Assembly (NCBI RefSeq): GCF_000970305.1
Contig: NZ_CP009517.1
Coordinates: 4,278,001 to 4,342,000, forward strand
Direction: 5' to 3'
DNA: 64,000 nucleotides
Origin: Methanosarcina barkeri 3
GTDB taxonomy: Archaea > Halobacteriota > Methanosarcinia > Methanosarcinales > Methanosarcinaceae
In this document: piece by piece, positions 14,910 to 32,401 of the stretch
How positions within the stretch are numbered: position 1 is the first letter of the stretch
How the letters are laid out: each line of letters begins with the position of its first letter
Position numbers and translations under genes: made by a program
The notes under the pieces: generated by a model
What the model saw: only the letters and a program-made list of their open reading frames with translations
Told to the model about the DNA's origin: nothing
The model's database searches: none

Positions 14910-16259
14910 ATGGAAGTAGTTATTGTTGGTGGTTTCCTTGGAAGCGGGAAGACCACAACTGTCATCAATATGGGTAAATACCTGGCAGAAAAAGGAAAAA
15001 AAGTCGCCATCATTGTTAATGAGATCGGAGAAATAGGAATTGATGGAGATATAATAAAGAAATTTGGGTTTGATACCAAAGAGATCACAAGCGGATGCAT
15101 ATGTTGTACCCTAAAAATGGGGTTGAGAACAACAGTCAATACTCTCATGAAAGAGTATGAGCCGGATATCCTGATGGTCGAACCCACAGGAATTGCTTTT
15201 CCAAACTCCATTAAAAACGAATTCAAACTAATGAACCTTGGAGAGGAAGTTAAAGTTGCTCCCCTGATAACTCTGATAGATGGAAGCCGCTTCAAACACC
15301 TGATGAAAGAGATAAAGGATTTTGCCATGAGGCAAATCATAGATGCTGAGATCCTGGGCATAAACAAAGTGGACCTTATAGACTCACTTCAGATCCCCAT
15401 TCTTGAAGTTTCAGTCCAGCAACTTAACCCAACAGCTAAAGTTATCTTACTTTCAGGAAAAGACACCGGAGAAAGGTTCGAAAGCTTCATGCAACTGGTT
15501 CTTCCAGGAATAAAGAATATTCCAAATAAAACCAAAAAGGCAGAAGAAAACGAATCTACACAACAGTATGTTGAAAACTCAAACGATGCCTGTGAAGTTG
15601 AGAGTTCTGAAGGGAATTCTTCAAATGTTCCATATAATCATGGCGATTCTTTCAAGCATACTGTTGGCAGTTACTCTGTAGAGTATTCCTTAAAAGACGG
15701 CAGAAACCTTAATGAGGAAACTGCAAGAACCATTACAACCGAAATAATGAATAAAATAAAAGAAAAGGTCCTTAAACTTAATCCAGAATTCTTAGGTCAT
15801 ATCAAACTCTTCCTCGATAACGGATCGGAAACAGCGAAACAGAGCATTACAATATATAACGAAGAGCCACAAGAAGATATTTTCAAATCAAATGATGGAG
15901 CTATCCCGACATTCAAGGTCCTTTCAGCCATTTCAAAAGTTGAGAGAAAAGAACTTGAAAATGCCGTTAACAGCTCGGTTGAGGAAGCCTTTGAAAAAAT
16001 AGGAGTCGATGTTCATCAGGTAAAACACAGCCACGATCATGATCATCATCACGAACATGACCACCATCACGAACACGAACATGATGAAGAAGAACACCAT
16101 GGACACGATCATCACCATGACCATGATGAAGAAGAAGAATATCATGGACACGATCATCACCATGAGCATCGAGTAGATGAAATACATGAGCATCGAGTAG
16201 ATGAAATACATGAGTACCAGAGATTATGTGATTATCAGAGGTCGCATAGAATAAAATAA
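14910..16259 (+). CDS. CobW/G3E-family GTPase with His/Asp/Glu-rich C-terminus
   Basis: 449 residues, likely cytoplasmic metallochaperone GTPase. Walker A GGFLGSGKTT is at 7-16, NEIGEIGIDGD at 37-47 (switch), the metal-binding CxCC in SGCICCTLK (Cys63, 65, 66), VEPTGIAFP follows, and GINKVDL is the guanine-specificity NKxD. The C-terminal CobW domain (ETARTITTEIMNKIKEKVL, then FLGHIKLF) runs to about residue 370. It is followed by a tail of ~60 residues dense in His, Asp and Glu and by two copies of EHRVDEIH encoded by a perfect 24-bp repeat. Lying between ramM and mtaCB, it may deliver zinc to MtaA/MtaB or handle cobalt; that is inference. Strong ribosome site GAGGAGAGGAC before the ATG. Close paralogue of the gene at 16985. 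Confidence 0.9.
   Translation: MEVVIVGGFLGSGKTTTVINMGKYLAEKGKKVAIIVNEIGEIGIDGDIIKKFGFDTKEITSGCICCTLKMGLRTTVNTLMKEYEPDILMVEPTGIAFPNSIKNEFKLMNLGEEVKVAPLITLIDGSRFKHLMKEIKDFAMRQIIDAEILGINKVDLIDSLQIPILEVSVQQLNPTAKVILLSGKDTGERFESFMQLVLPGIKNIPNKTKKAEENESTQQYVENSNDACEVESSEGNSSNVPYNHGDSFKHTVGSYSVEYSLKDGRNLNEETARTITTEIMNKIKEKVLKLNPEFLGHIKLFLDNGSETAKQSITIYNEEPQEDIFKSNDGAIPTFKVLSAISKVERKELENAVNSSVEEAFEKIGVDVHQVKHSHDHDHHHEHDHHHEHEHDEEEHHGHDHHHDHDEEEEYHGHDHHHEHRVDEIHEHRVDEIHEYQRLCDYQRSHRIK
16168..16215 (+). repeat. In-gene direct repeat, 24-bp unit, two copies
   Basis: Two identical 24-bp units starting GAGCATCGAGTAGATGAAAT encode EHRVDEIH twice at the end of the first CobW protein. The length keeps the frame, so copy number can change without breaking the gene. 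Confidence 0.85.
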
Positions 16260-16984: not shown

Positions 16985-18289
16985 ATGGAAGTTATTGTTG
17001 TTGGAGGTTTCCTGGGAAGCGGGAAGACAACCACCATTATCAATATGGGTAAATACCTTGCAGAGAAAGGAAAAAGAGTTGCCATTATTGTGAATGAGAT
17101 AGGGGAAGTCGGCATTGACGGAGATGTGATAAAAAGGTTCGGGTTCGATACAAAAGAGATCACAAGTGGGTGCATCTGCTGTTCTCTGAAAGTAGGGTTA
17201 AGGGTAACAGTTACTTATCTTATAAACGAATACAAACCTGACATTCTCATGATCGAACCTACAGGAATAGCTTTCCCGAATATAATAAAGAAAGAAATAG
17301 AACTCATGAATCTTGGCGAGCAGGTAAAAATCGCTCCTCTTGTGACCCTGATTGACGGCAGCCGTTTCAAGCATTTGATGAAAGAAGTAAAAGAATTTGC
17401 CATGAGACAGATTATTGATGCGGAAATTCTAGGGATAAATAAAACAGATCTGATAGAACCTATCCGACTTCCAATACTTGAAGCCTCGGTCCAGCAATTG
17501 AATCCGAAAGCCAGGGTGGTCCTGCTTTCAGGAAAAGACACAGGCGAGAGCTTTGAGAACTTCATGCAATTGGTGCTTCCGGATCTTGAAAAGTTACCCG
17601 AAAAATCCATAAAAGCTGAAACAACGAAAGCTGAGATAACAGAAACCGAACCTTATAAAGCCGAACTTTCTACGCCTCAGGAAACCGAGAGTTCGATAGA
17701 AGCCTCAAAAGTAGGCAGTTATTCTGCAGAGTTCGCGGTTGAAAACGAAAACCTGAGTACTGAGGCTGCAAGGAAATTAACAACCGAACTGATGAACACA
17801 GTAAAAGCAAAGGTGCTGCAACTAAATCCCGAATTTATAGGGCATATTAAGCTTTTCCTGGACAATGGGTCAGAAACCGTAAAACAGAGCGTTACAGTAT
17901 ATTATGAAGAGCCCCAGGAAGATGTAATCAAATCAAAGGAAGGAGCAACTCCTACTCTCAAGATACTTTCAGCGGTCTCAAATGCTGACAAAGAAGCTGT
18001 TAAAGCCGCTGTGAATAGTTCGGTACACGAGGTCTTTGAGAGAAAGCAAATAAAAATAAACAAAATCGAACATGAACATAACCACGAACACGAACATAAT
18101 CAAGAACACGAACATAATCAAGAACACGAACATAATCAAAAACACGAACATAATCAAGAACACGAACATAATCAAGAACACGAACATAATCAAGAACACG
18201 AACATAATCAAGAACACGAACATAATCAAGAACACGAGCACCATGAAAAGCATAAGCATGGTGATCAAGAGGAAGAAATTAGTAAGTAA
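16985..18289 (+). CDS. CobW/G3E-family GTPase with EHEHNQ-repeat tail
   Basis: 434 residues, paralogue of the gene at 14910 and near identical over the GTPase domain. Walker A GGFLGSGKTT (6-15), NEIGEVGIDGD, CxCC in SGCICCSLK, IEPTGIAFP and GINKTDL (NKxD) are all intact. The linker is rich in Glu/Thr (about 205-245). The C-terminal CobW domain is present (EFIGHIKLFLD). The last ~70 residues are a hexapeptide repeat EHEHNQ encoded by an 18-bp tandem array, quite unlike the irregular His tail of its neighbour. His-rich tails in this family bind or store zinc/nickel/cobalt. Ribosome site GGAGG precedes the ATG by 6 bp. Probable role: metal delivery to the methanol methyltransferase enzymes (inference from context). 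Confidence 0.9.
   Translation: MEVIVVGGFLGSGKTTTIINMGKYLAEKGKRVAIIVNEIGEVGIDGDVIKRFGFDTKEITSGCICCSLKVGLRVTVTYLINEYKPDILMIEPTGIAFPNIIKKEIELMNLGEQVKIAPLVTLIDGSRFKHLMKEVKEFAMRQIIDAEILGINKTDLIEPIRLPILEASVQQLNPKARVVLLSGKDTGESFENFMQLVLPDLEKLPEKSIKAETTKAEITETEPYKAELSTPQETESSIEASKVGSYSAEFAVENENLSTEAARKLTTELMNTVKAKVLQLNPEFIGHIKLFLDNGSETVKQSVTVYYEEPQEDVIKSKEGATPTLKILSAVSNADKEAVKAAVNSSVHEVFERKQIKINKIEHEHNHEHEHNQEHEHNQEHEHNQKHEHNQEHEHNQEHEHNQEHEHNQEHEHNQEHEHHEKHKHGDQEEEISK
18068..18247 (+). repeat. In-gene 18-bp tandem repeat encoding EHEHNQ
   Basis: Eight copies of GAACACGAACATAATCAA (one begins AAA, giving Lys), flanked by two degenerate copies. All keep the reading frame. The near identity of the units at the DNA level points to recent expansion, because synonymous changes have not built up. 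Confidence 0.92.
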
Positions 18290-23485: not shown

Positions 23486-24262
23486 ATGTTGGATTTGAAA
23501 CTGGAAGACATCGACGGCATATTAGTACGCTACAACGTCGCCCTCGAAAAGGAAATGACCCCTGATGAAGCCGCAGAAGAGCTTTATCCAAAAGACGAAC
23601 TCATCTATCCTGTTGCAAAAGCAATCTATGAGGGAGAAGAGGATGACGTAGTTGACGCACTTCAGGCTGCAATCGATGCAGGCAAGAAGCCAATCGACCT
23701 TATCGATGATGCCCTGATGGTAGGAATGGGAGTTGTAACCCAGCTCTACGACGATGGTATCATTTTCCTCCCGAACGTTATGATGTCCGCTGATGCCATG
23801 CTGGCAGGTATTGACTTCTGTAAGAGCCAGACAACTGAAGTTCCCGAGCCAAAGGGCAAGGTTGTCTGCCATGTTGCAGAAGGCGACGTCCATGACATCG
23901 GAAAGAACATTGTTGCTGCCCTTCTGAGAGCAAACGGCTACGAGGTAATTGACCTTGGAAGAGATGTTCCTGTAGACGAAGTAATCGCTGCAGTTGAAAA
24001 AGAAAAGCCAATGATGCTCACAGGTACTGCTCTCATGACAACCACCATGTATGCATTTAAGGAAGTTAATGATAAGCTCCTTGAAAAGGGAATAAAACTC
24101 CCATTCGCATGTGGTGGCGGTGCTGTGAACCAGGACTTCGTGTCTCAGTATGACCTTGGAGTTTACGGTGAAGAAGCTGCAGACGCCCCCAAGATTGCTG
24201 ACGCAATCGTTGCAGGTACTACAGATATCACAGCATTAAGAGAGGAATTCCACAAACACTGA
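23486..24262 (+). CDS. mtaC: Methanol-specific corrinoid protein MtaC
   Basis: 258 residues, the corrinoid carrier of the methanol:CoM methyltransferase complex. The N-terminal helical cap covers about 20-110 and the Rossmann-like B12 domain about 122-250. The base-off corrinoid ligand is His136 in GDVHDIGKN, the same number as reported for M. barkeri MtaC; other cobalamin-loop parts are visible as MLTGTALMTTTM and CGGGAVNQDF. It takes the methyl group from methanol through MtaB and gives it to MtaA. The ATG at 23486 follows TGGAGGTTAAAAT. It ends 13 bp before mtaB, so the two are co-transcribed in the order C-B. Confidence 0.97.
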   Translation: MLDLKLEDIDGILVRYNVALEKEMTPDEAAEELYPKDELIYPVAKAIYEGEEDDVVDALQAAIDAGKKPIDLIDDALMVGMGVVTQLYDDGIIFLPNVMMSADAMLAGIDFCKSQTTEVPEPKGKVVCHVAEGDVHDIGKNIVAALLRANGYEVIDLGRDVPVDEVIAAVEKEKPMMLTGTALMTTTMYAFKEVNDKLLEKGIKLPFACGGGAVNQDFVSQYDLGVYGEEAADAPKIADAIVAGTTDITALREEFHKH

Positions 24263-24275
24263 GGAGGGAGCAAAA

Positions 24276-25661
24276 ATGGTAAAAAAATACACTTCAATGG
24301 CTTACGCTAACGCAGATGAACTAATTTTCGGAAATTCAAAGTTCCCTGTAAAAGCAGGGCTTGGCCTTGAAATCGGTGCAGGTTACACATCCCCCGAAGT
24401 TAACTATGCCCCAAGGCCTGGCGCCGGTGCATCCAAAGAAAAGCTCATCAAAGAGTATGAAAGGATCACCACTGATATTATGGCAAGAATGGTCCAGATC
24501 GGAGCTCCCTCTGTTGTACTTGAAACTGAACACGTTCAGCAGATGTCCAACAACCCATCCTGGGGAGGAGCTGTTGCACATGCCCAGAAGACCATCATGG
24601 AAGAATACCATGACGAATACGGCATAAAGTGTGCACTTCGTCACACAATTGGTGACATTCGTGAAGACCGCGACTACCTCCAGCTCAGAGGAGACAAGTA
24701 CAGCACCTTTATGGAAGCCTTTGAAGAAGTTGCCAACAATGGTGCAGACCTGCTTGCAGTTGAATCAATGGGCGGTAAGGAAGTCTTCGACTATTCTATT
24801 CTGAGAAACGACACTGCAGGTATTCTCTTCGGTATCGGTGTGCTCGGTAGCATGGACATGGAAATGGTCTGGTCCGACATTGCAGATGTTGCAAAGAAGA
24901 CCGGAACTGTAGCTTCTGGTGACACAGACTGTGCCCAGGCAAACACTGCAATGTTCATTGCAGGTGGTCTGCTTGACAAGAACCTTGCTCACACAACTGC
25001 AATTGTTGCAAGGGCAATCTCTGCAGCAAGATCCCTCTGTGCATATGAAGCCGGTGCAGTAGGCCCTGGAAAGGACTGTGGTTACGAAAACAGTATCATA
25101 AAGTCCATTGCAGGTGTGCCAATTACTCAGGAAGGTAAGACTTCAACCTGTGCCCACTCTGACCTGATGGGTAACATTGTCATGCAGTGCTGTGACCTCT
25201 GGTCCAACGAATCAGTTGAATACCATGGTGAATTCGGCGGTACCACTGTTCAGTGCTGGTCCGAGACTCTTGCATACGACTGTTCCATGATGAACGTTGC
25301 ACTTAAGACCGGAAAAGCAAAGGATCTCAGAGACATTCTCGTGCTCTCGGACAAATACAGAGACCCGCAGGGCTATGTGCTTGCCTATGACAACGCATAC
25401 AAGGTAGGACAGGCAATCGCAAAGGATGGAGAGAACAACTACCTCCGTGCAAAGAACGCAGCAATCGAATGTTGCAACATCGTCGAAGAAGGTGTCAACT
25501 CCGGCAAGCTCAGACTTACAAGATTCGAAACCAATGCTCTTGCAAAGGTTAAGGCTGACCTCGAAGCTCTCACCGACGATGCTGACAAGTTCATGAGCGA
25601 CAACCTGACAAAGTTCAAACAAGAAGTTGCAGTTTTCAAACCTGAAAACTACGGGCTCTAA
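24276..25661 (+). CDS. mtaB: Methanol:corrinoid methyltransferase MtaB
   Basis: 461 residues, zinc-dependent enzyme that activates methanol and methylates the Co(I) corrinoid of MtaC; cytoplasmic TIM barrel. The expected zinc ligands are visible as Glu163 in LLAVESMGG, Cys219 in SGDTDCAQ and Cys268 in GPGKDCGYE, one position off the published M. barkeri numbering (164, 220, 269). Full length for the family. GAGGAGGGAGC before the ATG is a very strong ribosome site. Codon use is strongly biased towards G/C-ending codons compared with the intergenic A+T background, as in highly expressed genes. A T-rich run just past the stop (25672-25691) may act as a terminator before the transporter gene. 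Confidence 0.97.
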   Translation: MVKKYTSMAYANADELIFGNSKFPVKAGLGLEIGAGYTSPEVNYAPRPGAGASKEKLIKEYERITTDIMARMVQIGAPSVVLETEHVQQMSNNPSWGGAVAHAQKTIMEEYHDEYGIKCALRHTIGDIREDRDYLQLRGDKYSTFMEAFEEVANNGADLLAVESMGGKEVFDYSILRNDTAGILFGIGVLGSMDMEMVWSDIADVAKKTGTVASGDTDCAQANTAMFIAGGLLDKNLAHTTAIVARAISAARSLCAYEAGAVGPGKDCGYENSIIKSIAGVPITQEGKTSTCAHSDLMGNIVMQCCDLWSNESVEYHGEFGGTTVQCWSETLAYDCSMMNVALKTGKAKDLRDILVLSDKYRDPQGYVLAYDNAYKVGQAIAKDGENNYLRAKNAAIECCNIVEEGVNSGKLRLTRFETNALAKVKADLEALTDDADKFMSDNLTKFKQEVAVFKPENYGL

Positions 25662-25715: not shown

Positions 25716-26300
25716 ATGAGCGAAAACGTAGGAACTGCTACCGTAATAGTTGACAAGACTGCAAATGCTGCCCCCCTTGGTTTTACCGGACTGGGCCTTG
25801 CAGCAGTCCTGTTAAGTCTGAGCTACATCGGGGTATACCCTGTAGAATCAATGATTGTCTCGATGGCAATATTTCTAGGTGGGTTCGCCCAGGTATTTGC
25901 AGGAATTATGTGCTGGAAAAAAGGAGATGTTTTCGCAGGGACTGCATTTTCCGCTTTTGGCCTATTCTGGTTCTCACTGGCAGGATTACTTATTATGCCT
26001 GCAATCGGATGGGCTGAAGCGTCGTCTGGAACTGCTATGGCCGCGTATCTCTTCATCTGGGGTGTTTATACCTTTGTTATGCTGATCGTTACTATGAAAA
26101 TAGGAGTCCGTGCCCTCCAGTTTGTCTTTGTTACATTATTTTTGTTATTTATATTGCTTGCTGTTGTAAACGCAACCGGCAGTACAGGGTTGCTTGTAAT
26201 AGCTGGCTATGTAGGACTTGTTATGGGCCTTGGAGCTCTTTATACAGCTCTTGGCATGGTAATGAATGAAATCCACGGGAAAACTGTAATCCCACTCTAA
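25716..26300 (+). CDS. AceTr / GPR1-FUN34-YaaH family membrane transporter
   Basis: 194 residues with about six hydrophobic segments. The family signature NPAPLGL near the N-terminus reads NAAPLGF here (TANAAPLGFTGLG). Bacterial and fungal members carry acetate/succinate or act as anion channels, and Methanosarcina members have been called putative acetate transporters. I choose the ATG at 25716 (MSENVGTATV), because CAGGTGA lies 5 bp upstream; the longer frame from 25680 starts in the T-rich run after mtaB. It sits 54 bp downstream of mtaB in the same direction, so it could be read through from the mtaCB promoter. A role in methanol-linked transport is inference. Confidence 0.85.
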   Translation: MSENVGTATVIVDKTANAAPLGFTGLGLAAVLLSLSYIGVYPVESMIVSMAIFLGGFAQVFAGIMCWKKGDVFAGTAFSAFGLFWFSLAGLLIMPAIGWAEASSGTAMAAYLFIWGVYTFVMLIVTMKIGVRALQFVFVTLFLLFILLAVVNATGSTGLLVIAGYVGLVMGLGALYTALGMVMNEIHGKTVIPL

Positions 26301-26471
26301 AATAGTAAAACAATCAGCATTTATTGAGTAAAACCTTGAACACCTGAAGAAAAAACCTGCACCAACCTCGAGAACTGTGTTAAATCCGTAAAACCGCAGG
26401 AATAAATATTAAAAAACAACCTAAAATATTAAAAATAGTAAAATATTAAAAACAGTAAAACATTAAAAAAC

Positions 26472-26637
26472 AGTGTAAAACAAAGTCTAAGGCAGGCATA
26501 GGTCTTAAGCCTGTGCTTGCCAATCCTCCCAATATAATTAAATCCAAAACTGCAAGAAACAGTAAAAACAGCGTAAAATAAAGTCTAAGGCAGGCATAGG
26601 TCAATAAGCCTGTGCTGCCAATCCTCCCAATATTATT
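26472..26637 (+). repeat. Two copies of a ~68-bp hairpin element
   Basis: Copy 1 (26472-26540) and copy 2 (26570-26637) are about 95% identical. Each holds a stem of GGCAGGCATAGG with CCTGTGCTTGCC (copy 2 lacks one T), which pairs over 12 bp with two G-U pairs, and is followed by CAATCCTCCCAATAT. They lie downstream of the transporter gene and are read on the same strand. They could be terminators, RNA-processing elements or a repeated intergenic element. The rest of the spacer to 26951 holds no firm gene. Confidence 0.8.
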
Positions 26638-26951
26638 GCATGAGTGGCTAACCTCTGCATTATGACCGCGTTATAAAATATAGGCACTTGAGTGCCTGTT
26701 TAATTTTTAGAAATAATATCGTTTTTGTTTTTACCAAGCCTTCTCAAAAAATGCTTGAGCGAAAACCTTTTGAGAAAAGGTTTTATCGAAAACCAGAGAA
26801 CCATTTAGATTTGAAAAACTTATCCCCTAACCCTATAGGCGTGATCAACCGGCTCAATGGTTGCAGCACAGCCTTTGTGAAAAAGGAATGATCGAAATAA
26901 AAAGATACGCTAGAAGGAAGATTGGAAGAACTAGTTAACGGTGAACTTCGA

Positions 26952-28130
26952 ATGCAAGCGGATAAAAAGCTTGACGAAACCCGCAATAAAACCCGCAATA
27001 AATCTTATTTGGGGCTTGCTTTGAGTTTGACATTGACACTTTTCAAGCTGCTAGCCGGGACTTTGGGAAATAGTACTTTACTTCTCGCCGATGCAGTTCA
27101 TTCTTTCTCCGAATTTATCAATGAGTGTACAAAATTTTTGGATTATTCTATTGGAAGCAAACCTGAGGATGAAAGTCACAACTACGGACATGGAAAAGTC
27201 ACAACCCTCTGCGTGGGAGCAGGGGCTTTAATTCTACTTTTTGCAAGTTTTCATACAATTTCTCTGAGTTCCGGAAAACTGCTCATGTTTTTGCAGAGTA
27301 AAGAGCCCGGAACTCCTGAAGTCACTGCACTCTATGCCGCAATTGCAGCCTTTGTATTAAGAAATATTATGGCTATCTTGATAGGAAATCCTGAAGTACA
27401 AGTTAAAGAGGTTTCCTCGAAAGATTATGTCCCCATAAAACACTTATCAATCATCCAGATAAAAAACCTATTAGCCATCCATATAAAACACTTATCAATC
27501 ATCCAGATAAAAAACCTATTAGCCATCCATATAAAATACTTATCAGTTGTCCCAGTGAAATACTTATTAGCTATCCCAATAAAAGAATTATTAGCCGTCC
27601 GGATAAAAAAGTTATTAGTTATTCCAATAAAAGATGTACTGATATTCGGCTTTGTTATTGCAGGCATAGGCTGCACGTTCCTACCTGAAAAAGGCTTTAA
27701 AATAGCTGATTCTTTCGTTGCACTTTTTTTAAGCCTCTATCTTCTTGAAACTTCAGGCAAACTTCTCTACAAGACTGCAAACGAGTTGATAGAAGCCTCC
27801 CTTGATGAGGAAAATAACCTTAGAATTAGGGAGATTATAGACAAAACCGAAAACGTCACAGGTTCCGGGGAACTTAAAACCCGCAGGATAGGAAAGAATA
27901 TAGCAATCAATGCTAGTGTCAATGTGAATAATTCCCTGAATGTTCTGGAAGCTGCAGAGATAGCAAACCTGGTAGAAGAGAGGCTGAAAGCATCTTTTAC
28001 GGAAGATATATACGTATTGATAAAAATCGAGCCCGTAGAAGTAGTGAATAAGAGTTTCAAAAACAAAGTAGATTTGCTAATGGGAAGACAGGAGAAAAGG
28101 CAAATTTATTTTAATAAAATAAAAACATAG
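26952..28130 (+). CDS. Cation diffusion facilitator (CDF)-like protein with a repeat-replaced middle
   Basis: 392 residues from the ATG at 26952, preceded at 7 bp by GGTGA; a TTG at 26922 after GGAAG is an alternative start. The N-terminal half is a normal CDF: TM1 SYLGLALSLTLTLFKLLAG, TM2 with the metal-site motif LADAVHSFSEF, then HNYGHGKVTTL and TM3. TM4 (ALYAAIAAFVLRNIMAIL) ends in DNA-encoded repeats (27435-27634) giving IKHLSIIQ / IKNLLAIH-like octapeptides. These take the place where TM5 with the second HxxxD/DxxxD half-site is expected. TM6 and the C-terminal cytoplasmic domain (NELIEASLDEENNLRIREII) follow. The transport site therefore looks incomplete, and the protein may be defective or may have changed function. 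It lies between the AceTr and hyuA-like genes. Confidence 0.75.
   Translation: MQADKKLDETRNKTRNKSYLGLALSLTLTLFKLLAGTLGNSTLLLADAVHSFSEFINECTKFLDYSIGSKPEDESHNYGHGKVTTLCVGAGALILLFASFHTISLSSGKLLMFLQSKEPGTPEVTALYAAIAAFVLRNIMAILIGNPEVQVKEVSSKDYVPIKHLSIIQIKNLLAIHIKHLSIIQIKNLLAIHIKYLSVVPVKYLLAIPIKELLAVRIKKLLVIPIKDVLIFGFVIAGIGCTFLPEKGFKIADSFVALFLSLYLLETSGKLLYKTANELIEASLDEENNLRIREIIDKTENVTGSGELKTRRIGKNIAINASVNVNNSLNVLEAAEIANLVEERLKASFTEDIYVLIKIEPVEVVNKSFKNKVDLLMGRQEKRQIYFNKIKT
27435..27634 (+). repeat. In-gene repeat: perfect 48-bp duplication plus degenerate 24-bp units
   Basis: 27435-27482 and 27483-27530 are identical, starting ATAAAACACTTATCAATCAT. They are followed by diverged 24-bp units that keep the pattern ATAAAA...TTA. 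The products are octapeptides of the form IK-x-L-L/S-x-x-x. The frame is kept throughout. Confidence 0.92.
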
Positions 28131-28314: not shown

Positions 28315-30321
28315 ATGCACTACAGTCTTGGAATCGATGCAGGAGGCACTTATACTGATGCCGTTATCGTTAGGGACTCGGACGGATCTGTCATCGAATT
28401 CAGTAAAGCGCTTACTACTTATCCCGATCCACTCCCTGGAATGAAAAATGCTATTGATGCACTTACTCCAGAGTACCTTAAAGACATTAAACTGGTATCC
28501 GTATCTACGACCCTGTCTACGAATACTATCCTGGAAAGCACCGGGTTTCCAGTAGGGTTAATTATGGTAGGGGATTATGTGATTCCTGAGAAACTTCCTA
28601 CGGCTTACTGGGTGACAGTCTCTGGTGGGCATAACAATGACGGGGAAGAGTTACAGACTCTTGACATCGCTTCCGTAAAAGAATTTGCCCTAAAGGTAAA
28701 AGATAAGGTTTCTGCTTTTGCGGTTTCTTCATACTTCAGTAACCGCAACCCGGAACATGAGCTTGCTGTCAAAAAAGTAGTAAAGGAATTTACAGGGCAC
28801 CCTGTTGTTTGCGGACACGAACTTTCTCAGGATCTTGGAGCCTATGAAAGGGCTATAACTGCATTTCTTAACGCCCAGTTAATTCCTGTTACTCACAAAT
28901 TTATTCAGGCGATAGTCAAGGAATTTGAAATCAGAGGTATAAACGCAAACTTATTGATGTTGAAATGTGATGGGTCAGTGGTAGGGATAGAAGAAGCCCT
29001 GGAAAAACCCATTGAGACAATATTTTCAGGGCCTGCCGCAAGCCTTGTTGGGGCATCTCATCTGAGCAGGTTCAACACCTGTGCTATGATTGACGTTGGC
29101 GGTACGAGCACGGACGTAGCCATGATAGTGAACGGGCTTCCCCAACTTAGCAATATAGGTGCCGTTGTCGGAGGCTGGCAAACCCGAGTAAAAGCTATTC
29201 GTATGGAGACCTCTGCAACAGGGGGAGACAGTCATATCTGGGTAAAAGGTGATCGAATTTATATCGGTCCTCGTCGGGTAATTCCACTCTGTCGGGCTTC
29301 GGTCACTTACCCCGGTTTCAAGGAAAAACTGAAATTGAACAAGGTTGCAAAAGGGTATCTCTGTGAAAGCATCCAGGTAACAAAATTTTATGTCAGGACC
29401 GATTTCAAACCTATTGAACTGAAGGCCGGAGAGCGGGAAATCTACAGGCATATAGGAAAAGAGCCTGTTTCCTTCGGGGATCTGCTAATAGCCCTGAAAA
29501 AACGCCCAGCTCCATCTATTCTGGACTCATTAGTCCAGAAAAGGTTAATCCAATCAATAGGCTTTACTCCTACTGATGCCCTTCACGTGCTTGGAGAATA
29601 TACCGAATGGGATGTGGAGGCTGCAACAATTGGGGCTTCCATGCTTGGGAGAATACTGAAGCAGAGCCCGGAAACTTTCAGTGCGGAAGCAAAACGCAGG
29701 GTTGCACGAAATATTGCCGAAGACCTTATTGCTTATCTTATAGAAGGAATGCCAAGAAACGAGATTGATAGGGTTCTTCTTGGAAGGAACTTTACCCGTT
29801 TCAGAGTTGAAATTCCCGTAGTGCTTTTAGGAGGGCCCGTAAAGGCATACGTTGAGGATCTGAGAACCCTTATAAATGCTGATTTCATAGTTCCAGAGCA
29901 TGCTGAGGTTGGTAATGCTGTGGGAGCCCTTGTCGGAAAAGGAATTAAAAGAGTAGAGATTCTTATAAAAACAAAAGTCATTAAATCTCTTGAAGGTAAG
30001 GCTGAGAATATAGATAATGAGGCTCATGAGAAGTGTACTGCAGAAAATACTTTGCCGTATGAAACTAAAAATGAGTTCATTGTCTTTTCCCCATCTGAAA
30101 GAACGAAATTTGAAAGCTATCATGAAGCCGTTGAGTTCGCAGAAAAGCTTGGAAGACAGCTTGTTATGGACTACATGGTGAGTGCAGGACTTCAAAAGGA
30201 GAATATAAATATAGACGTAAGCCGGAAGCATCTAGCGCCAAGCGGCTGGACTGATGTGCCCCTGGAAACAAAACTTGTTTTCGTAGGAGTAGGAATCCCA
30301 AAAACTACGATTACAGCCTGA
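28315..30321 (+). CDS. HyuA-like (hydantoinase/oxoprolinase A family) ASKHA-fold protein, copy 1
   Basis: 668 residues from the ATG at 28315, preceded by AGAGGTTGA. The N-terminal ASKHA phosphate loop is LGIDAGGTYTDAVIV, then STTLSTNTILE; the second loop is AMIDVGGTSTDVAMI with FSGPAASLVGA. These are the ATP-binding elements of HyuA. No HyuB gene is present, and the nearest genes are methanol-specific, so hydantoin or oxoproline hydrolysis is unlikely. The C-terminus (~560-668) differs from HyuA and is shared with the copy at 30476 (LAPSGWTDVPLETKL / LSPPGWKHTPMETKI). Substrate unknown. A role as an ATP-driven helper of the corrinoid or zinc enzymes is possible; the RamM activator is itself an ASKHA protein. 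Confidence 0.8.
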   Translation: MHYSLGIDAGGTYTDAVIVRDSDGSVIEFSKALTTYPDPLPGMKNAIDALTPEYLKDIKLVSVSTTLSTNTILESTGFPVGLIMVGDYVIPEKLPTAYWVTVSGGHNNDGEELQTLDIASVKEFALKVKDKVSAFAVSSYFSNRNPEHELAVKKVVKEFTGHPVVCGHELSQDLGAYERAITAFLNAQLIPVTHKFIQAIVKEFEIRGINANLLMLKCDGSVVGIEEALEKPIETIFSGPAASLVGASHLSRFNTCAMIDVGGTSTDVAMIVNGLPQLSNIGAVVGGWQTRVKAIRMETSATGGDSHIWVKGDRIYIGPRRVIPLCRASVTYPGFKEKLKLNKVAKGYLCESIQVTKFYVRTDFKPIELKAGEREIYRHIGKEPVSFGDLLIALKKRPAPSILDSLVQKRLIQSIGFTPTDALHVLGEYTEWDVEAATIGASMLGRILKQSPETFSAEAKRRVARNIAEDLIAYLIEGMPRNEIDRVLLGRNFTRFRVEIPVVLLGGPVKAYVEDLRTLINADFIVPEHAEVGNAVGALVGKGIKRVEILIKTKVIKSLEGKAENIDNEAHEKCTAENTLPYETKNEFIVFSPSERTKFESYHEAVEFAEKLGRQLVMDYMVSAGLQKENINIDVSRKHLAPSGWTDVPLETKLVFVGVGIPKTTITA

Positions 30322-30475
30322 GAGGACAAAGTAAACTGGAATATCAGCAGCCGGATAATATAAACAGAAATATATATCTTGAGAATACCTTTACAATTCC
30401 GGATAAAAGGATGTACACAGCTAAAAAAAAGGATCTGAAATGTGTAACATAAAGTAAAAATGGGGCTGTTTTGAT

Positions 30476-32401
30476 ATGCAATATAGTCTGGGTATTGACG
30501 CAGGCGGAACCTGCACCGATGCTGTAATTTTAAGAGATTCGGACAGCCGGATCCTTGATACCAGCAAGGCAATTACTACCTATCCGGACCTTATGGTCGG
30601 AATTCGAAATGCACTTGATAAACTAAATCCGGAGTATCTTAGCAAAGTAAAACTGGTATCGGTTTCCACAACCCTGTCAACAAATACCATTCTCGAAAAA
30701 ACAGGGTATCCTGTTGGTCTGATTCTGGTAGGGAACTATACTGTCCCAAGAGAACTTCCAGCAGATTACTGTACTACTGTAAAAGGAGGGCATGACAGCA
30801 ATGGAGATGAGCTGCAGCCTCTGGACCTTACTGCCGTGGAACAGTTTGCAGTAAGCCTGAAAAAGAAAGTTTCCGCATTTGCGGTGTCTTCGTACTTCAG
30901 CACAAGAAACCCGGAACATGAGCTTAAAGTAAAGGAAATAATTCTTAAATTGACAGGGCATCCTGTGGTTTGCGGACATGAATTATCTCAGGAGCTTGGA
31001 GCTTACGAAAGGGCGGCTACCGCTGTCTTAAATGCCCAGCTAATTCCTATAACATACCAGTTTATTCATTCTATCACTGCCGAAATAAAGAAAAGAAACC
31101 TTGATGCGAAAATCTTTATGCTGAAATGTGACGGCTCGGTTATAGATATAAAAGGTGCAAAACTACGTCCCATTGAAACCATATTCTCAGGCCCTGCTGC
31201 AAGTATTAAGGGAGCTTCTTACCTTTCAGGGCTGGACACCTGTGCCGTAATCGATGTGGGAGGAACAAGTACGGATGTTTCCATAATAAAGAACGGAGTC
31301 CCTGAGCTTTGTGAGAAAGGAGCAGTTGTAGGAGGCTGGCAAACCCGAGTAAAAGCGATAAGAACAGAGAGTTCGGCAAATGGGGGAGATAGCCATGTGT
31401 GGTTTAAGAAATGCATCAGGATAGGCCCGAGAAGAGTTATGCCACTCTGCGTTGCTGCTGTACTGTACCCCCACTTTAAAGAAAAACTTGAAAACAATCC
31501 CGTGCCCTTAAGAACTATGCTCAGTGAGCATACTCAGCCTACAAAATTCTTTGTCAGCACCGGAGCAGACCCTATTAGTCCTACAGAAAGCGAGAAGAAG
31601 TTACTTGAGATTATAAAAGACGAACCTCTTTCTATTCACGAAATTTTAAATAAAATGAAGCGGTTTCCCTCTCCAGCAGTCCTTGATTCACTAGTTCAGC
31701 AACGTGTAATCCAGGCTATAGGCTTCACACCGACTGATGCCCTGCATGTGCTTGGGGAATATACCGAATGGGATGTGGAAGCTGCCCAGATAGGAGCAAA
31801 AAAACTTTCGCGTTTTACTCAAATGGGAATTCATGCTTTTTGCAAAAAGATAAAGCAGCAAGTTGCAAAAAATATGGTTTACAATTTGATGTCTTATATC
31901 ATGGAAGGCAGGGGAAAAGAAGGGATAAAGAAAATGCTGGAGGAAGATGTTCCTGTACAGTACAAATTAAATATTCCCATAGTCCTGCTCGGAGGCCCTG
32001 TAAAGGCTTATTATGAAGATATCAAGGCACTTATTGATGCAGAGATTATAGTTCCTGAGCAGGCTAGTGTAGGAAATGCAGTTGGAGCTCTAGTAGGAAA
32101 AGGAATTAAAAGAATTGAGATAATTGTAAGACCATCCTCAATGGAAAATCCAGACCAGAACTTCCTGGTATTTACCCCTGCAGGAAGGAAGAAGTTTGAG
32201 CAGTATCAGATGGCAGTAGAATATTCCTATAAAACTGGAGAAGAACTTATTCTGGACTCAATGAAAGATTTTGGACTTCCAGAAGGCTCAATAAAAATAA
32301 GCACAAGTATGGAATACCTTTCTCCACCTGGCTGGAAACATACGCCAATGGAAACAAAAATAACTTTTATAGGTGTCTGTACTCCGGGGGACTTAGTTTA
32401 A
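30476..32401 (+). CDS. HyuA-like ASKHA-fold protein, copy 2
   Basis: 641 residues, a tandem paralogue of the gene at 28315 with the same ATP-binding elements (LGIDAGGTCTDAVIL, STTLSTNTILEKTG, AVIDVGGTSTDVSII, FSGPAASIKGA) and the same C-terminal extension. The motif NGGDSHVWFKK and the HVLGEYTEWDVEAA segment are near identical between the two and may mark the active site. It starts at the ATG at 30476 after a weak GGGGCTG site, 154 bp after the first copy. Two diverged paralogues in a row suggest either a hetero-oligomer or two substrates. Not assignable to a reaction from sequence. Confidence 0.8.
   Translation: MQYSLGIDAGGTCTDAVILRDSDSRILDTSKAITTYPDLMVGIRNALDKLNPEYLSKVKLVSVSTTLSTNTILEKTGYPVGLILVGNYTVPRELPADYCTTVKGGHDSNGDELQPLDLTAVEQFAVSLKKKVSAFAVSSYFSTRNPEHELKVKEIILKLTGHPVVCGHELSQELGAYERAATAVLNAQLIPITYQFIHSITAEIKKRNLDAKIFMLKCDGSVIDIKGAKLRPIETIFSGPAASIKGASYLSGLDTCAVIDVGGTSTDVSIIKNGVPELCEKGAVVGGWQTRVKAIRTESSANGGDSHVWFKKCIRIGPRRVMPLCVAAVLYPHFKEKLENNPVPLRTMLSEHTQPTKFFVSTGADPISPTESEKKLLEIIKDEPLSIHEILNKMKRFPSPAVLDSLVQQRVIQAIGFTPTDALHVLGEYTEWDVEAAQIGAKKLSRFTQMGIHAFCKKIKQQVAKNMVYNLMSYIMEGRGKEGIKKMLEEDVPVQYKLNIPIVLLGGPVKAYYEDIKALIDAEIIVPEQASVGNAVGALVGKGIKRIEIIVRPSSMENPDQNFLVFTPAGRKKFEQYQMAVEYSYKTGEELILDSMKDFGLPEGSIKISTSMEYLSPPGWKHTPMETKITFIGVCTPGDLV

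Follow-up and report, generated by a model that had tools for sequence, protein, structure and literature searches.

Does the expansion of a repeat within a membrane transporter remove its metal site? This question is raised by a gene of the cation diffusion facilitator (CDF) family in the window, a stretch of 64,000 nucleotides (G000:C1:4278001-4342000) from the single-contig, 4.56-Mb genome of Methanosarcina barkeri 3, whose nearest named relatives are Methanosarcina spelaei and Methanosarcina sp. UBA11020. The original prediction proposed that octapeptide repeats had invaded the gene in frame and filled the place of the fifth transmembrane helix (TM5), which carries one half of the metal site.

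A CDF-family gene in a methanol methyltransferase cluster

The gene (26952-28130, + strand) encodes a 392-aa protein and starts at an ATG (26952) preceded by a GGTGA (26940-26944), both of which are common to most orthologs. The protein matched Pfam Cation_efflux (PF01545, 1.3e-19) and ZT_dimer (PF16916, 6.6e-14) and scored 123.6 bits against TIGR01297 of NCBIfam (cut-off 82.35), while the best PDB match of its six-helix fold in Foldseek was YiiP (5vrf, E 1.6e-14). Homology and fold thus place it in the CDF family, as had been proposed.

The gene lies in an mtaCB cluster. Upstream are mtaC and mtaB (23486-25661, +), the methanol corrinoid protein and methyltransferase genes, assigned by NCBIfam equivalog models over their cut-offs, and a GPR1/FUN34/YaaH acetate-transporter-like gene (25716-26300, +) supported by a profile match and synteny. 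Downstream are two hydantoinase/oxoprolinase-like genes (28315-32401, +), the first of which (28315-30321) was called by Pfam and the second (30476-32401) by its similarity to the first. The resulting order, mtaC-mtaB-yaaH-CDF-hyuA-hyuA followed by two FilR1/Msr-type regulators, is kept around the CDF slot in the ortholog loci that we read, and three COG0523/CobW-type GTPases and a RamA-like activase are found further upstream in the window. Archaeal COG0523 proteins have been reported to cluster with the Zn-dependent mtaA/mtaB (PMC2770081). In M. acetivorans, the mtaCB2 locus consists of MA4391-MA4394, followed by the hydantoinases MA4395-4396 and msrDE, and repression of HdrED raises MA4394 together with mtaCB2 (PMC11619418). 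From its slot between mtaB2/MA4393 and MA4395-4396 we infer that MA4394 is the CDF ortholog, and from the same gene order we take L055 of genome G001 to be MA4394; unlike the window protein it lacks a repeat array and has an Arg at position 50 and a Ser at the TM5 Asp position.

Other repeats were observed in this neighborhood. The CobW/COG0523 genes at 14910-16259 and 16985-18289 carry His-codon-rich tandem arrays at their 3′ ends (16032-16214 and 18068-18237; for example, 9.4 copies of an 18-bp unit coding for EHEHNQ), and a 98-bp direct repeat (1.8 copies, 90% matches) occupies 26458-26637, between the yaaH-like and CDF genes.

Position of TM5 and of the conserved domains

We built an AF2 model on 51 CDF sequences (mean pLDDT 77), which superseded an earlier run on 18 close orthologs (mean pLDDT 56.7). 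The model places TM1 to TM6 at residues 2-38, 42-68 (27075-27155, +), 81-114, 124-144 (27321-27383, +), 226-241 (27627-27674, +) and 247-280 (27690-27791, +). The repeats fall in the TM4-TM5 loop, with a pLDDT of about 30-50 over most of their length, and TM5 follows them with a pLDDT of about 90. The alignment with intact CDFs led to the same position: the stretch IPIKDVLIFGFVIAGIGCTFL lines up, ungapped, with HHRSDAFSSxxTMIGIGxAxFL of the intact paralogs, and the GIG anchor (238-240) puts the canonical H-HRS-D on I224-PIK-D228. We used this ungapped anchor instead of the MAFFT localpair alignment, which in some rows placed the repeat gap inside HHRSD. TM5 was therefore not replaced, although the HxxxD motif is indeed missing from it: I224 (27621-27623) stands for the His and D228 (27633-27635) matches the canonical Asp. 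No other [HDE]xxx[DEH] pattern was found in TM3-TM6 of the window protein.

Alignment of the orthologs showed that the site B residues in the TM2-TM3 loop, D73, H76 and H80 (27168-27191, +), are retained; the Asp and the first His are present in 22/22 full-length orthologs and the second His in 20/22. The C-terminal dimerization domain (ZT_dimer; 27807-28037, +), supported by Pfam, the selection analysis and the AF2 model, is usually the most constrained part, and the His of the known CTD metal site seem, by eye, to be absent from the window protein. The frame of the C-terminal tail (28068-28130, +) differs from that of the orthologs owing to a 1-bp difference near 28068 in the DNA alignment with L041, and the shift falls after the dimerization domain. 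YiiP/FieF shares with the window protein the closest fold, the site B residues and the dimerization domain, but has a complete site A, which the window protein lacks.

Loss of the membrane metal site A

In TM2, the alignment with intact paralogs identified H50 (27099-27101) and E54 (27111-27113) as the ligand positions, in H50-SFS-E54 where the canonical motif is HSLSD. The half-site is thus not the DxxxH-S read here originally; what remains is H50 with E54, the Asp being already a Glu. We then compared the 22 full-length orthologs (18 in Methanosarcina and four in the sister genus g5). Read from the GIG anchor, the first TM5 position is neither H nor D in any of the 22, and the second is D, E, S, G or N. 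In TM2, HxxxE is confined to the window protein, L041 and L042; the other orthologs have RxxxE or RxxxD, and most combine the Arg with a TM5 devoid of acidic residues. Congruently, the published CDF signature over TM2-TM3 (PMC1868760) matched 0/22 members of this clade and 16/16 intact relatives, so that the window protein departs from a canonical transporter both in this signature and in TM5 (I224xxxD228 in place of HxxxD/DxxxD).

The absence of the TM5 half-site does not follow the repeats. Fifteen of the 22 orthologs have no extra unit and all of them lack the HxxxD; the orthologs with one (L047/L049), two (L044) or three units (L043/L045/L046) likewise lack the TM5 His. When the columns of the repeats and of the TM2 site were left out of the tree, the degenerate proteins form a single clade (100/100) on a long stem (0.9), as expected after a loss of constraint, and its sister (100/98) is L096 of G035, a genome of genus g4, which is intact (HSFSD, HHRTD) and occupies the same gene slot. 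Because an intact syntenic protein is the sister of the degenerate clade, a single loss of the metal site, in the ancestor shared by Methanosarcina and g5, preceded the repeats. The change was from HxxxD to RxxxE/D in TM2 and from HxxxD to xxxx[D/E/S/G/N] in TM5. The window protein and its two closest relatives form a trio nested among R50 orthologs, so their H50 (CAT) appears to have reverted from Arg (CGN).

The nearest CDF paralog in the window's own genome (L002, C1:3051461-3052345) has DHRSD in TM5, a DxxxD, where its relatives have HHRSD. DxxxD in TM5 is the pattern published for Mn-CDFs.

Origin of the octapeptide array

TRF detected a 24/48-bp tandem array at 27435-27618 (score 219). 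Read in frame, it consists of eight 24-bp units (27435-27626, +; aa 162-225) coding for (I/V)KxL(L/S)xIx. The perfect 48-bp duplication and the kept frame that had been described were both confirmed: units 1-2 (27435-27482) are identical to units 3-4 (27483-27530), and the period-48 identity spans 54 positions from 27435. A ninth and last unit, IKDVLIFG (aa 226-233; 27627-27650), is formed by the first eight codons of TM5. Counting this TM5 start as one, the window gene has nine units, L041 ten and L042 nine, while L043, L045 and L046 have three, L044 two, and L047 and L049 one; with one genome per species, the number thus varies between species (1, 2, 3, 9, 10).

A search of the repeat DNA against its own genome gave short matches only, the best being 23 bp in unrelated non-coding sequence, and a dispersed element was rejected on this result. 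Since the last unit is the TM5 start itself, local tandem copying of the N-terminal end of TM5 explains the array better than an invasion. Stepwise copying of the first 24 bp of TM5 is the simplest reading of the unit numbers: in the lineage of the window species these eight codons would have gone from one to two or three and then to nine or ten units, and the TM4-TM5 loop would have grown by a segment that is basic, moderately hydrophobic and nearly unconstrained. The pN/pS of the units was 0.78 between the window gene and L042 and 0.71 among the window units, without a significant synonymous excess, in a small test that concerted change could distort; on these values, we read the array as evolving close to neutrally. 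An in-frame repeat taken alone is ordinary. Another array, long and non-coding, was seen at 1200-1460 of L070, with short units of gctaatttggaa followed by aggagttagtttg-like ones.

Selection outside the repeats

Outside the repeats, the pN/pS of the window trio was 0.20-0.30 (P 7e-4 to 6e-7). Other ortholog pairs gave about 0.2 and the intact paralogs values near 0.1, the dN/dS of the CDF orthologs being about twice that of the intact paralogs, and the synonymous excess was significant in many species pairs. The gene is under purifying selection outside the repeats (dN/dS about 0.2) and is retained in this way in most of the species that have it, and the fold, the site B residues and the dimerization domain have been kept despite the loss of site A.

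Remnants of the gene occur in the same slot in L048, which has an internal deletion, and in L059 and L060, with about 70 recognizable codons. The gene is dispensable, as several members of the genus have no copy or only these relics.

These results allow three readings of the locus to be weighed together. That the repeats invaded the gene, replaced TM5 and so destroyed the metal site would account for the missing HxxxD and for units sitting where TM5 is expected to start, but TM5 is present after them in both the alignment and the model, the repeat lacks genomic copies apart from short matches, and the 15 orthologs without extra units also lack the motif; we rejected this reading on the evidence of selection, the tree and the model and find it barely credible. 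A decaying pseudogene in the methanol cluster would explain the lost ligands, the truncated copies and relics in G012, G018 and G029, the C-terminal frameshift of the window copy and the in-frame TAGs of six orthologs. It was rejected on the same three kinds of evidence and is very improbable, given the selection described above, frames that are open in most species and the transcript of MA4394, which responds together with mtaCB2 (PMC11619418). Selection for the repeat as a functional membrane-surface or metal-binding loop, comparable to the His-rich TM4-TM5 loop of ZnTs, is somewhat less improbable but still unlikely: the array sits in that same loop, is basic, contains four His and keeps its frame across nine or ten units in three species, but its His are not conserved between species, its pLDDT is low and neither pN/pS value reveals significant constraint. 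The TM4-TM5 loop is cytoplasmic in CDF proteins.

Putative role of a CDF protein without site A

With a gene retained by selection after the loss of its ligands, we lean slightly towards a protein kept as a dimeric membrane partner in the zinc supply of MtaB, which would no longer serve as an ordinary metal/proton antiporter. It may act as an auxiliary subunit of an intact CDF or as a metal-sensing or metal-handling scaffold. Its place among the methanol genes suggests that the presumptive metal is zinc and that the protein would help, together with the COG0523 GTPases encoded nearby and a putative partner, to provide it to the zinc enzyme MtaB; we give such an auxiliary or scaffold role about an even chance. 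A sensor is weakened by the seeming absence of the CTD metal-site His. Intact CDFs, candidate heterodimer partners, are present in the same genomes.

In the CDFs that have been assayed, substitutions at these ligand positions abolish or impair function (for example, the ZitB variant H53R and the Asp-to-Glu exchange in TM5 of CzcD, ZitB and PtdMTP1; PMC1868760). ZnT6, in which two ligands are missing, is believed to serve ZnT5 as an auxiliary protomer (PMC7949119), and Zrg17-like proteins have TxxxS/T in TM5 (PMC1868760). Like ZnT6 (SLC30A6) and yeast Zrg17, the window CDF lacks site A ligands, conserves the dimerization domain and has been kept; those proteins, however, are eukaryotic, act with ZnT5 or Msc2, and have neither a link to a methanol cluster nor an octapeptide array.

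Alternatively, the protein could still transport metal through a modified site A, in the manner of ZnT9, with H50, E54 and D228 binding the ion in the window subclade. ZnT9 has V/IxxxD in TM5 and is regarded as a zinc transporter (PMC11335279), and the window protein shows the same TM5 pattern (I224-D228), a His apparently regained among R50 relatives, and a retained fold and site B, so it could still bind metal. But ZnT9 (SLC30A9)-like CDFs keep the HxxxD of TM2, where the window protein has Glu for Asp and most orthologs Arg for His; these orthologs, with no acidic residue in TM5, are under similar selection, and the TM2 D to E change left CzcD worse than an empty vector (PMC1868760). We therefore consider a ZnT9-like transporter possible but on the unlikely side. 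For the family as a whole, with mostly Arg in TM2, a partner or scaffold that does not transport is the better fit.

Eukaryotes are known to have CDF subunits that do not transport. If the partner role holds, this would be a prokaryotic lineage with a single loss of the site and with a living syntenic ortholog, still intact, as a control, and the role of such proteins could be tested in the genetically tractable Methanosarcina.

In-frame TAG codons

In all four g5 orthologs (L092-L095), the TM2 codon for the Ser that adjoins the former ligand Asp is an in-frame TAG (RSF-TAG-D); the matching Ser is TCG in L058, one step from TAG. Purifying selection is strong on the 274 codons after this TAG (P 5e-7 to 1e-12) and weaker on the 48 codons before it. 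PylS is encoded in all four genomes, so that the g5 orthologs combine an in-frame TAG, conserved downstream coding and the pyrrolysine machinery gene, and the TAG is likely read through as pyrrolysine. Reinitiation at an ATG downstream may occur instead. Internal stops of any kind were absent from 189 copies of eight neighboring genes, but the six genes with TAGs probably represent two events and the Fisher value on them thus overstates the evidence.

Among the papers searched, none paired pyrrolysine with a cation diffusion facilitator, and the main texts of two published pyrrolysine gene predictions name no cation transporter. Thg1 of M. acetivorans has pyrrolysine outside the methylamine methyltransferases (PMC2933860) and, like the g5 CDFs, carries its TAG in an ordinary gene, but in one species, whereas the g5 TAG is the same codon in four species and lies within TM2 of a membrane protein. 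Readthrough would place a pyrrolysine, conserved between species, in the membrane protein of g5 and would extend the use of this residue to a membrane transporter homolog. The joint proposal, in which the site-A-less CDF of Methanosarcinaceae, an archaeal counterpart of ZnT6, helps to deliver zinc to MtaB as a regulatory or scaffold subunit, and the g5 proteins carry a TM2 pyrrolysine beside the former ligand, is rather doubtful as a whole.

The TAG of the Methanosarcina orthologs L054 and L057 is an event separate from that in TM2. It is located in the dimerization domain, at the position of window aa 351, where relatives have GAA, CAG, CAA or AAG.
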